From Stenomitos rutilans HA7619-LM2 (GTDB taxonomy: Bacteria; Cyanobacteriota; Cyanobacteriia; Leptolyngbyales; Leptolyngbyaceae): 59,002 bases of DNA. The notes below the pieces were generated by a model. The model saw only the letters and a list, made by a program, of their open reading frames with translations. It was not told the origin of the DNA and did not search any database. Positions 1,620 to 4,673 of this stretch are shown one piece after another. Numbering within the stretch: position 1 is the stretch's first letter; each line of letters opens with the position of its first letter. A program made the position numbers and the translations under genes. The stretch lies in contig JAHHIE010000041.1 in NCBI GenBank assembly GCA_019358945.1, positions 1 through 59,002 of the forward strand, given 5' to 3'.

Positions 1620-2138
1620 GCGGTATGGCTCTCCCTGAGACGTTTGCTTGATGGAACTGCTTTTTGAAAGTGTCGCGCCTGAAGCTAAGAAACCCTTGAA
1701 GTAAAGCTGAGTGGAGGCTTAATTTGTGAACCTGAAGCCGATGCATATTAGGACGATCGCACAAACACCGCGATCGCTCAGATACTACCACTTGAAACAA
1801 CGGATCAAAACCATACGTTCAGCCAATGTTGCCGCGATTGAAAAGACGAAACACGCGATCGCAGAAAATACAAAGACTGCAAAACGAGGTCTCTGCGGCC
1901 TCAGCACCTCAGCGGTAGAACAGCAATGAGAATGCTTTCCTTTCTTTAAGTGAGAATGCTTTCTCCTGCCACCTTGCACATTGCAGCCACAAGCCTAGCC
2001 ATTTTTCCAGGGTCTTACTCCCCATTTCGTCGATGTGGTTGAACAGGCAAAGCTTGCATCCTGAATATAGGCGGAGGCAACCATTAGCAGATGCACAAAG
2101 CGCTAATCGTTAAACGCTAAATTTTATGGAGACATGAC
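1620..2138. other. Intergenic region with a 13-bp direct repeat
   Basis: This stretch separates two divergent genes and should hold both promoters. The 13-mer TGAGAATGCTTTC occurs at 1927-1939 and 1951-1963, a 24-base period, about 180 bases upstream of the protease operon. A GGAGA motif lies just before the ATG at 2139. An open frame at 1726-1929 looks like chance. No RNA gene was recognised. Confidence 0.4.
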
Positions 2139-3095
2139 ATGACGAATTCACCCCCAAATCTACGTTCTGAGGAAAACCGATCGTTAATCGCGTTTTCGGA
2201 TCAACTGGCAACGATCGTTGAACAAGCAGGCGCATCGGTGGTAGCGATGAATGGACGACGACGGCGATCGACCAGTGGTGTTTACTGGCGACCAGGCATC
2301 ATCGTAACAGCGGAACACGCGATCGGTCGAGATGACGAACTCACAGTAACGCTGCCAGATGATCGCACCGTGACTGCAACCTTGGTCGGACGCGACCCAG
2401 GAACCGATTTAGCGGTTTTACAGCTCAGTGAAAATTCACCACCCGCTTTACAAGTCCCAACAGTTGGCGACCCTGCCGCGCTTAAAGTCGGCCATCTGGT
2501 GCTGGCGATCGCACGCGGTAGTGATAGTGGAGTGAGTGCCAGCTTTGGTGTGATTAGCGCGATCGGTGGTACATGGCGCTCTTGGCATGGTGGGCGCATT
2601 GACCAGTTCATTCGTCCGTCGGTCATGCTATATCCAGGGTTTTCAGGGAGTGCTCTAGTTGACACACAGGGGCAAGTGGTCGGCATCAATACAGCGGGAC
2701 CACGACACATGGCGCTAACCATTCCAGCTTCTACCGTGAACCGAGTGGTCGATCGCCTGCTGCAAGGTGGCGGTTCCCAACGTGGCTTTCTGGGTTTGGG
2801 GATGCAATCCGTGGAGCTACCCCGCGCACTGCTCGATCGACTGCACCTGGCTAACCGTCAGGGAGTCATTGTCGTCAGCGTCGAACCCGATGGCCCTGCG
2901 GAGCAGGCAGGTGTCTTATTGGGTGATATTCTCATTGCCCTGGGCGGCGCACCCATTAGCGATGTCGGCGATGTCCACAATTTACTAGACCCAGAACAAG
3001 TCGGGCAACCGCTTACAGCACAGATTATTCGTGGCGGCGCGTTAATTGAAATCACGATTACGGTTGGCGAACGACCACACCAAACGCGAGGGTAG
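2139..3095 (+). CDS. Trypsin-like S1C serine protease with PDZ domain, non-canonical active-site loop
   Basis: 318 residues in the HtrA/DegP-like fold. The triad can be placed at H60 (TAEHAIG), D90 (GTDLAVL) and S169 (PGFSGSALV). The usual GNSGG around the serine is replaced by GFSGS, so the serine is kept but the oxyanion loop is altered. A PDZ domain follows (about 210-310; motifs GFLGLG and GVLLGDILIALGG). There is no signal peptide or membrane segment, unlike typical HtrA, which suggests a cytoplasmic location (inference). It is the first gene of a three-gene operon; the next gene starts 5 bases after its stop. Activity on peptide substrates is likely but not certain given the altered loop. 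Confidence 0.88.
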   Translation: MTNSPPNLRSEENRSLIAFSDQLATIVEQAGASVVAMNGRRRRSTSGVYWRPGIIVTAEHAIGRDDELTVTLPDDRTVTATLVGRDPGTDLAVLQLSENSPPALQVPTVGDPAALKVGHLVLAIARGSDSGVSASFGVISAIGGTWRSWHGGRIDQFIRPSVMLYPGFSGSALVDTQGQVVGINTAGPRHMALTIPASTVNRVVDRLLQGGGSQRGFLGLGMQSVELPRALLDRLHLANRQGVIVVSVEPDGPAEQAGVLLGDILIALGGAPISDVGDVHNLLDPEQVGQPLTAQIIRGGALIEITITVGERPHQTRG

Positions 3096-3099
3096 AAGG

Positions 3100-3990
3100 A
3101 TGCAAGAGAATCAATTTGTTCAGCCAGGGATCGTTCAGCCAGACCTTGCGGGGGCGATCGCTGCGATCGCCAAACACCTTCGTCAGTCTACCGTACAGGT
3201 ACGTACCCAGCGCCAGGGAGCCGGATCAGGCGTGATCTGGAGTGCCGATGGGGTCATTATGACCAATGCCCATGTGGTCACGGGAAACAGCGCTACGGTC
3301 GAACTTGCGGATGGGCAGGTGTTGGAAGCAGTGGTAACAGCACGCAATCGGCAGCGGGATTTGGTCGCGCTAAAGGTCGAAGCAACAGGGCTGACCGCAG
3401 GAGCGATCGCGGATTCAACCCGGCTGCGGGTGGGCGAAGTCGTGGTGGCAATGGGCAATCCGTGGGGCGTTGTGGGAGCGCTCACAACGGGCATCATCCA
3501 CAGCTTCAAGCCCCATTATGGCAACCAGCACTGGATTCAAGCCGATATTCAACTTGCTCCGGGTAATTCGGGTGGTCCGTTGGCAAACGCGCAAGGACAG
3601 ATTATTGGCATCAACACTATGATTGTGCACGGTCGGGGCTTTGCGGTGCCGAGTCACGTCGTGCAGCAGTTCCTTAGCCAGGGCAGCGACGAACCATTCT
3701 TAGGGATTACTGCCCAACCAGTGGGCGTGCGGCTTGCGCGTCAGTTGGCGATCGGTCTCTTGCTAACGGCGATCGAGCCTCAGAGCCCAGCAGAAATCGC
3801 CGGATTGCAGGCTGGAGACGTGCTACTGGGCGTTCGCGGCAACCTCTTTCAATCGCCCAACGAACTCTTCCATTTACTAGAAAATTCAAACGTAGGTGAC
3901 GGGTTGCCGTTGGAGGTTTTACGGCAGAATCGGCGCTTTACAGTGGACGTGGTGCTATGCAGCAAAACCTTTCAACCACAGGCAGCATGA
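3100..3990 (+). CDS. Trypsin-like S1C serine protease with PDZ domain (canonical triad)
   Basis: 296 residues from the ATG at 3100, preceded by GAGGG at about -12. It is a second HtrA-like protease with the standard triad: H58 (TNAHVV), D87 (QRDLVAL) and S157 in GNSGGP. A C-terminal PDZ domain covers about 205-290 (FLGIT; GLQAGDVLLGVRG). As with the upstream paralogue, no export signal is visible. The gene starts 5 bases after the upstream stop and overlaps the response regulator downstream by an ATGA junction, so the three genes are very probably co-translated. The pairing of one canonical and one altered protease suggests division of labour, for example catalytic and regulatory subunits; that is inference. 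Confidence 0.9.
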   Translation: MQENQFVQPGIVQPDLAGAIAAIAKHLRQSTVQVRTQRQGAGSGVIWSADGVIMTNAHVVTGNSATVELADGQVLEAVVTARNRQRDLVALKVEATGLTAGAIADSTRLRVGEVVVAMGNPWGVVGALTTGIIHSFKPHYGNQHWIQADIQLAPGNSGGPLANAQGQIIGINTMIVHGRGFAVPSHVVQQFLSQGSDEPFLGITAQPVGVRLARQLAIGLLLTAIEPQSPAEIAGLQAGDVLLGVRGNLFQSPNELFHLLENSNVGDGLPLEVLRQNRRFTVDVVLCSKTFQPQAA

Positions 3991-4673
3991 TCCGCGTTCT
4001 GGTCGCTGCAAGCTCGGTGGTGATGCAGGCTGGGCTAGAGGCGCTCCTTTCCTCCAGCTCAGACATTGACCTTGTTAGCAGGCCTACGACGACAGAAACG
4101 CTGACACAGCAAATCGCACGATCGCAGCCTGATGTTGTGCTGTGGGAATGGAATGATGCGGAGACAGACGGTATTCCAGCGGTAATAATTACCGATCTAG
4201 GTGAAGGAAACGCTGCGCCTGCAATGGAGGGAGGGAGTATAGAGAGCCTCAGCCCCGCGATCGTCGTTATGGTGGATGACTGGCAACCGCCTGCAATTGC
4301 CAGCGTTCTCAATGCCGGAGTGCGGGGTATTCTACCAAGCGATGCCACCGCCACTGAGTTTGTGGGCGCGATCGTCGCGGCAGCCAGAGGTTTAACCGTC
4401 ATTCACCCCGACCTGCTCAGCCCCTTACTCAGCAGTTTGCCCTCCAGCACTCGTGCTACCCCTATAGAACAAGGCGAAGCGCTCACCAACCGCGAGGTAG
4501 AAGTGCTCACCATGCTGGCAGAAGGACTGGGCAACAAAGCGATCGCCCGTCGCCTTAACCTCTCCGAGCACACCGTCAAATTTCACATCGGCTCTATTTT
4601 CAGCAAGCTTCATGCCTCTAGCCGCACCGAAGCCGTAATTCTAGGCGCACGACAGGGACTTATTTTGCTATGA
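3987..4673 (+). CDS. LuxR/NarL-type response regulator with degenerate receiver
   Basis: 228 residues from ATG 3987, which overlaps the upstream TGA as ATGA; an in-frame ATG at 3957 is also possible. The C-terminus is a clear LuxR/GerE helix-turn-helix (LTNREVEVLTMLAEG; LNLSEHTVKFHI). The N-terminal receiver aligns with NarL-type domains but lacks the chemistry. The acidic pair after beta-1 is A7-A8, the phospho-acceptor Asp is E54 (VVLWEWN where VLLDLN is usual), and the conserved Lys in the LLKDA motif is replaced (ILPSDA). It is therefore probably phosphorylation-independent, with Glu perhaps mimicking the active state (inference). Operon linkage to two proteases suggests proteolysis or ligand binding as the input. 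Confidence 0.88.
   Translation: MIRVLVAASSVVMQAGLEALLSSSSDIDLVSRPTTTETLTQQIARSQPDVVLWEWNDAETDGIPAVIITDLGEGNAAPAMEGGSIESLSPAIVVMVDDWQPPAIASVLNAGVRGILPSDATATEFVGAIVAAARGLTVIHPDLLSPLLSSLPSSTRATPIEQGEALTNREVEVLTMLAEGLGNKAIARRLNLSEHTVKFHIGSIFSKLHASSRTEAVILGARQGLILL

Follow-up and report, generated by a model that had tools for sequence, protein, structure and literature searches.

We describe a three-gene operon in the cyanobacterium Stenomitos rutilans HA7619-LM2 that encodes two HtrA-like proteins (P1 and P2) and a NarL/FixJ-type regulator (P3) and that lies downstream of a conserved two-site DNA element (contig JAHHIE010000041.1 of assembly GCA_019358945.1; the whole stretch of 59,002 nucleotides that was analyzed is called the window). 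The unit is conserved in four phyla, P1 is catalytically dead in whole lineages, the P2 triad is intact, the receiver of P3 is dead, and P3 ends in a characteristic tail. Judged from these features, we consider the chances evenly balanced that the genes form a self-contained autoregulated cassette, in which P3 would set transcription of the operon and its PDZ-bearing HtrA partners would control P3.

Gene content and distribution of the unit

P1 (2139-3095, plus strand; 318 aa) and P2 (3100-3990, plus strand; 296 aa) each consist of a trypsin-like domain and a PDZ domain, of which P1 has one, and P3 (3987-4673, plus strand; 228 aa) joins a pseudo-receiver to a LuxR-type helix-turn-helix (HTH) domain. 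The P1 stop codon (TAG, 3093-3095) and the P2 ATG at 3100 leave a gap of 4 nt, where a first-pass annotation of this DNA had counted 5 bases; the ATGA overlap that it had read between P2 (stop at 3990) and P3 (ATG at 3987) is present, and the three-gene operon is real. This overlap is exactly 4 nt in 18 of the 26 Nostocaceae-like loci measured, the remaining 8 being scored with longer open reading frame (ORF) starts. The spacer between P1 and P2 is about 370-530 nt in four Nostocaceae-like loci (L027, L029, L030 and L031) and much shorter in other close relatives.

P1 was the sole search key, and scoring was confined to the best few first-look candidates of each genome; "Nostocaceae-like" as a name for family f7 and part of the phylum names are taken from the named locus used as center, or are inferred. 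We found P1 at E<=1e-45 in 9 of 386 cyanobacterial genomes, including that of the window. A contig scan gave P1 relatives in Lyngbya sp. HA4199-MV5 (91%), in an Oscillatoriales metagenome-assembled genome, in Stenomitos frigidus, and in Acidobacteriota (43-48%). With a P1 profile (E<=1e-65), matches were obtained in 7 of 396 Acidobacteriota, 76 of 251 Chloroflexota, 15 of 398 Pseudomonadota, and 72 of 145 Nostocaceae-like genomes; 65 of these 72 hold a strong P1 (cut at about 1e-116), and the other 7, which match only at 1e-66 to 1e-70, were counted as being without P1.

Gene order was read in 140 loci found with P1 alone, with flanks of generally 1.5-6 kb (30 of the 65 strong-P1 Nostocaceae-like genomes were read in this way; the Chloroflexota match rows G961:C185, G841:C30, and G1006:C440 were left unfetched, and the S. 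frigidus locus L036, described below, stands outside the 140). P3 lies on the strand of P1 in 121 of them: in 5 of 5 loci from other cyanobacteria (window included), 27 of 30 Nostocaceae-like loci (the other three are cut by the locus end), 9 of 9 Acidobacteriota, 64 of 80 Chloroflexota, and 16 of 16 Pseudomonadota loci. As a control, P3 was found at none of 74 loci whose best match is an ordinary HtrA. The genes occur in the orders P1-P2-P3, P1-P3, P3-P1-P2, and P1-P3-P2, and in seven Pseudomonadota P2 is divergent from P1-P3. Moreover, an all-against-all comparison of 23 loci turned up no flanking gene shared by three or more, except among close Nostocaceae-like relatives, and the flavin adenine dinucleotide (FAD) oxidoreductase encoded upstream of the operon is matched only in L034, a near relative. 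Because the order is permuted and the content constant, these observations argue for a cassette that was apparently kept for its function and not as an inherited stretch of DNA. The first-pass annotation had taken a lack of linkage outside close relatives as grounds to drop its reading; such linkage is present, since the unit occurs in four phyla, with its gene order permuted.

We also considered and rejected mobile or defensive origins. Only one plasmid record matches at E<=1e-30 (a megaplasmid of Paraburkholderia sprentiae, which carries P1), and 14 records in a phage collection are weak Deg/HtrA-like matches at 28-36% identity, so that a plasmid- or phage-borne element was set aside. As for a phage-defense module, the PADLOC matches are weak and generic (trypsin and HTH parts).

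Two HtrA-fold proteins and a pseudo-receiver regulator

In both P1 and P2, which share about 27% identity, Pfam reports Trypsin_2 and PDZ_2. They fit the HtrA/Deg (Do) family by domain order, though not by curated scores or export signal. Their scores are 180.6 (P1) and 206.1 bits (P2) for TIGR02037 (cut-off 416.2) and 134.3 and 170.5 bits for NF041521 (cut-off 450), and because the NCBIfam scores lie far under every curated cut-off shown, no named equivalog includes P1, P2, or P3. Neither protein has a recognizable export signal, in line with the signal peptides reported missing at first pass: a 19-residue Kyte-Doolittle mean of at least 1.6 before the catalytic His occurs in 0 of 138 P1 and 1 of 97 P2 proteins (1.66, Ala-rich), by a hydropathy cut of only fair sensitivity, which picks up four of the six other HtrA-type paralogs in the genome of the window. 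In these hydropathy counts and in the residue counts below, P2 is any HtrA-type ORF within 1.1 kb of P1.

The P1 of the window keeps an intact triad (H60-D90-S169) with GFSGSA in place of GNSGGP, and P2 has the canonical triad (H58-D87-S157), both as read at first pass. Across the 138 aligned P1 proteins (L260 and L261, ordinary HtrA by eye, were left out of the residue counts), His-Asp-Ser is intact in 90, among them the P1 of the window and all 78 from Chloroflexota, and the catalytic Ser is lost in 47. Specifically, the triad reads E-D-A or E-D-V in all 30 Nostocaceae-like loci, and 15 of 16 Pseudomonadota proteins have His replaced by Glu together with Ser replaced by Glu or Gln (seven of them also Asp by Gly); three single loci differ in other ways, L033 by Glu for Ser, L134 by Ser for Asp and Ala for Ser, and L038 by Glu for Asp. 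The description of the pair as two proteases thus holds for the window and fails for P1 in whole lineages. In a quick tree of 68 rows built with the triad columns masked, P1 and ordinary HtrA are separated by a starred branch (98), with one stray Chloroflexota row across it, and the state of the P1 triad (intact or not) changes at least four times. The tree indicates that catalytic loss in P1 arose in separate lineages, with P3 retained.

P1 is dead in whole lineages, and a conserved mechanism therefore cannot depend on its proteolytic activity; the conserved role of P1 lies outside proteolysis, and what is kept by selection is the scaffold with its PDZ domain. The P2-type neighbors, on the other hand, keep His-Asp-Ser in all 96 readable copies. 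Since P1 is often dead and the P2 triad is intact, we propose P1 as the PDZ scaffold and P2 as the protease that does the work, the two probably forming a pair of pseudo-enzyme and active enzyme. With a mean pLDDT of 67, the structure model of P1 is mediocre, and it served for the fold only; its first three matches in the PDB are DegS chains bound to activating or YQF-type (C-terminal-type) peptides. As separate observations, at L036:5977-6810 (S. frigidus ULC18) an in-frame deletion has removed P2 and the PDZ of P1, so that the P1 protease domain runs directly into the HTH of P3, an arrangement that may reflect a natural fusion, a decay product, or an assembly error. In the genome of the window, P2 has five other HtrA-type relatives at E<=1e-31, and a single contig carries three weaker ones, with P1 ranking between the stronger and the weaker sets; that genome also has three consecutive trypsin-like/HtrA-type matches at G000:C93:69345-72714.

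The P3 profile matches VraR over nearly the full length (E 2.8e-41). Pfam finds the LuxR-type HTH and reports no receiver at E<=0.01, and the predicted fold is that of a receiver, with TM scores of 0.80-0.82 to DesR receiver chains (Foldseek). Placing P3 on a solved VraR/LiaR chain puts A8-S9 at the position of the acidic pair, E54 at that of the phospho-Asp, and S118 at that of the Lys. The earlier reading of a receiver without acidic pair, with Glu54 for the phospho-Asp and without the Lys, is therefore right except that the pair sits at A8-S9 and not at A7-A8. The acidic pair (positions 8-9) is found in none of 120 P3 proteins with a complete N-terminus (four have one acidic residue, at 9), and neither is a Lys at 118, while Asp is present at 54 in 68 of 120; at most 9 of the 120 are gapped at the columns of the acidic pair, Asp, or Lys, where the receiver is vestigial or diverged. 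By its receiver fold and LuxR-type HTH, P3 fits the NarL/FixJ type, and by its lack of the acidic pair and Lys it classifies as a pseudo-receiver. On these residues, ordinary aspartyl phosphorylation would be unable to switch P3, which supports the suggestion at first pass that something other than phosphorylation sets its activity. Likewise, no sensor kinase gene was seen nearby: Pfam finds a histidine kinase domain in none of ten neighboring ORFs (5.5-17.3 kb; four of the ten are without any match) and none in the oxidoreductase upstream of the operon.

A regulator of this kind could also act without its neighbors. P3 might be a phosphorylation-independent autoregulator of a housekeeping operon that senses otherwise, for example through a small ligand bound by its pseudo-receiver, with the HtrA proteins as its output and no contact between them. 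Autoregulation alone would explain the conserved upstream element, and ligand-binding pseudo-receivers are known (PMC12632262, as excerpted). However, output enzymes should stay active, yet P1 is kept dead beside P3 in whole lineages. In addition, P3 is only about 123-125 aa in seven of the eight Pseudomonadota loci L170-L177 (in the eighth, the ORF call begins farther upstream) and also at one locus in Acidobacteriota, and these short proteins have about 60 residues before the HTH, which speaks against ligand sensing there. We regard such a housekeeping operon as rather unlikely and return to control of P3 by its HtrA partners, for which the C-terminus of P3 offers a candidate contact.

HtrA PDZ domains bind hydrophobic free C-termini, and the P3 of the window ends in GLILL-COOH. 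We found the tail G-phi-phi-x-phi-COOH at a fixed place in 94 of 95 complete P3 copies (the sole exception is the second LuxR-type gene in L233) vs 3 of 48 other LuxR-type proteins, and a hydrophobic last residue in 95 of 95 vs 14 of 48. These 48 controls come from seven genomes and comprise 23 of the 24 other P3 matches in the genome of the window and 25 of 30 fetched loci, five having been left out as lying next to P1; control ORFs were chosen by HTH score, and a few of their C-terminal ends may be wrong. The comparison is given as counts with no P value, related sequences not being independent. The P3 tail is a plausible PDZ ligand, and its near-invariant hydrophobic C-terminus lends circumstantial support to the PDZ-ligand control that the first-pass annotation had suggested.

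That annotation had named regulated proteolysis as the other possibility. P3 would then be a substrate of P2 by way of a C-terminal degron, with P1 as an adaptor or pseudo-subunit and the level of P3, as opposed to its conformation, as the switch. The triad of P2, intact wherever it was read, the near-invariant free C-terminus of P3, and the 4-nt overlap of P2 and P3 in most Nostocaceae-like loci measured would all fit. Against it, P1-P3 persists with no P2 next to it in a number of the fetched loci, some of which could be truncated: 9 from Pseudomonadota, 22 from Chloroflexota (one of the 22 has a second LuxR-type gene), and 2 from Acidobacteriota. In 8 of the 9 Pseudomonadota loci, P1 is dead as well. 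We think regulated proteolysis of P3 unlikely and favor switching of P3 by contact with P1.

A two-site element upstream of the operon

Upstream of the operon, we found an element of two putative operator sites that the first-pass annotation did not mention. Site I (CTAGCCATTTTTCCAGG, 1995..2011, plus strand) is an imperfect palindrome; site II (CTCCCCATTTCGTCGATG, 2018..2035, plus strand) starts 23 nt downstream of the site I start. With the 6 nt between them, the two occupy 1995-2035, 103 nt upstream of P1. The first 13 bases of site I have one match in the window at 0-1 mismatch (0.09 expected), and site I is the sole 0-mismatch copy in its own genome. The footprint of the sites is seen across Nostocaceae-like and other cyanobacteria: 13 of 14 Nostocaceae-like upstream regions align as a 42-nt conserved island amid unconserved flanks (the 14th was found by scan), and the best site spacing in 35 cyanobacterial loci, chosen among 22-25 nt, is 23 nt in 3 and 24 nt in 32. 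Of the 145 Nostocaceae-like genomes, 59 contain a single match to a strict two-site pattern that tolerates up to 3 mismatches, and none matches the reversed pattern. These 59 are 58 of the 65 strong-P1 genomes vs 1 of the 80 others, and the lone P1-less match (G048) is tandem-repeat-like, with no P1, P2, or P3 in the surrounding 5 kb. Two of the seven strong-P1 genomes without a match were opened, and the element is present in both, one with 6-nt and one with wider spacing.

We then scored upstream regions with a two-site profile trained on cyanobacteria and 23 sites from half of the Chloroflexota, with p values from 200 Markov shuffles. Among promoters of ordinary HtrA genes, taken as controls, 1 of 71 reached p<=0.005, vs 33 of 39 held-out loci from Chloroflexota, 3 of 9 from Acidobacteriota (one of the three weakly), and 0 of 16 from Pseudomonadota. 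Relaxing the threshold to p<=0.05 gives 37 of 39, 5 of 9, and 7 of 16, vs 5 of 71 controls. Pseudomonadota carry palindromes of a related type. One group has CTGACCARATGGCCAG and CTAGCCGTCAGGCGAG at all 7 of its loci, with P2 divergent from this upstream region, and the other has CTNNCCAYCMGGCYAG at all 8, although these are weaker support, as the groups consist of close relatives with partly similar flanks. By eye, the palindromes share the core CTRGCC-N4/5-(GG)CYAG. Because no DNA-binding protein other than P3 was found to accompany the element, we propose P3 as the binder, and judging from this association it likely binds there.

The element could instead be a promoter or the site of a host-wide regulator. 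Its pairing with P3 is not separated from its pairing with P1, and three Chloroflexota loci (L220, L226, and L229) score for the element upstream of P1-P2 with no P3 nearby, where P3 may act from elsewhere. A promoter or host-wide site would sit poorly, however, with an element that occurs at most once per genome in the 145 Nostocaceae-like genomes and only with a strong P1, apart from the tandem-repeat exception, and that is common to phyla with differing other regulators; we judge it quite improbable. Two further candidates were set aside. An RNA leader or riboswitch gave no Rfam match at E<=1 in 1600-2300, a search by family match in which no fold or covariation test was run. No wider regulon emerged from sites away from the operon: 0-mismatch copies occur once each in 10 of 16 genomes, all at the operon, and of seven off-operon one-mismatch sites that were opened, six fall within ORFs (with two genes each hit in two genomes) and the seventh is 56 nt upstream of an ORF. 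When up to 2 mismatches are allowed, most of the 16 genomes have more single sites than matches to the reversed pattern; this control differs in CTAG/GATC content, and the excess may reflect either a composition effect or minor targets.

Proposed mechanism and comparison with known systems

We propose that P3 would bind the two palindrome-like sites and thereby set transcription of the operon, and that it would be switched by contact with P1, a DegS-like, intracellular, and often non-catalytic protein, in place of phosphate. The contact would plausibly be made by the PDZ domain of P1 (and of P2) binding the free hydrophobic C-terminus of P3, and P2 would act as a protease, probably paired with P1. 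Unfolded or cleaved proteins with hydrophobic tails could plausibly fill the PDZ domains, upon which P3 would be released or stabilized and expression of the operon would rise or fall. The circuit would thus be a titration feedback of the HspR-DnaK type made from HtrA parts. More broadly, we tentatively suggest, at somewhat less than an even chance, a new signaling class in at least four phyla, with the histidine kinase replaced by an HtrA-fold protein that has no export signal and has repeatedly become a pseudoprotease; its PDZ domain would read C-termini and signal to a pseudo-receiver through the PDZ-ligand tail of the latter, with one dedicated two-site operator.

Several points weigh against this proposal. 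Both the binding of P3 and the signal are what we infer, and the hydrophobic P3 C-termini may merely pack within the HTH fold. Part of the loci lack P2 beside P1-P3, so that the unit does not require an active protease in its immediate neighborhood. Of the 80 Chloroflexota loci, 16 show no P3 near P1; two of these are ordinary HtrA by eye, L259 falls in the ordinary-HtrA group of the tree, two are at a contig end, and in the remaining 11 P3 was not seen within the fetched flank. At p<=0.005, the profile failed in all 16 Pseudomonadota and 6 of 9 Acidobacteriota loci, and 11 one-mismatch single sites lie away from the operon in 7 of 16 genomes.

We recognized no description of the P1-P2-P3 unit in the full-text literature, as searched by titles and abstract starts with most subscription journals outside coverage, nor is it shown in the available portions of papers on PDZ domains in microbes (PMC6411480), prokaryotic serine proteases (PMC2605481), and conflict systems with trypsins (PMC7159879). 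Our findings suggest that the cassette is an undescribed way to control a gene switch through protease-like partners. Here a pseudo-receiver regulator has a candidate partner, a candidate contact (the PDZ-ligand-like tail), and a candidate DNA target, and the repeated evolution of a pseudoprotease has a plausible selective reason. The unit also offers an entry point to HtrA biology in the cytoplasm, and the cyanobacterial family concerned has culturable members.

Among known systems, DegS, which acts in the RseA/sigma-E pathway, is a PDZ-gated HtrA stress sensor whose ligand is a hydrophobic C-terminal peptide. P1 resembles it in its trypsin-like domain with one PDZ and, as far as the model goes, in its three best structural matches. 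It differs in being without a recognizable export signal and often catalytically dead, and its partner would be a DNA-binding pseudo-receiver, whereas that of DegS is a membrane anti-sigma factor. An active and a degenerate HtrA-type protein, as in P2 and P1, are also paired in MamE and MamO of magnetotactic bacteria, with repeated catalytic loss; these are magnetosome proteins for biomineralization, and the parts of that paper available to us mention no regulator or operator partner (PMC4794232). The operon proteins score far under the 800-bit cut-off of the MamE and MamO equivalogs, and Pfam finds no magnetosome family among the ten neighboring ORFs scanned. Like P3, NblR, ChxR, and BldM/WhiI have a receiver fold without the phosphorylation residues, and some atypical response regulators are controlled by degradation, sequestration, or inhibition by a bound partner (Rem/MirA); the words "protease", "PDZ", and "proteolysis" have no occurrence in the review text at hand (PMC12632262). 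P3 differs from these regulators in having a dedicated HtrA partner.

An analogy in circuit design is offered by HspR-DnaK and HrcA. HspR is a MerR-like regulator. It is encoded with protein-quality genes, several dimer sites have been proposed on its own promoter, and its regulon is restricted, at least in the excerpt available (PMC6102357). By analogy, the cassette would work like this feedback without being a member of the family: P3 is of the NarL/FixJ type, and HtrA proteins with their PDZ domains would take the place of the chaperone.

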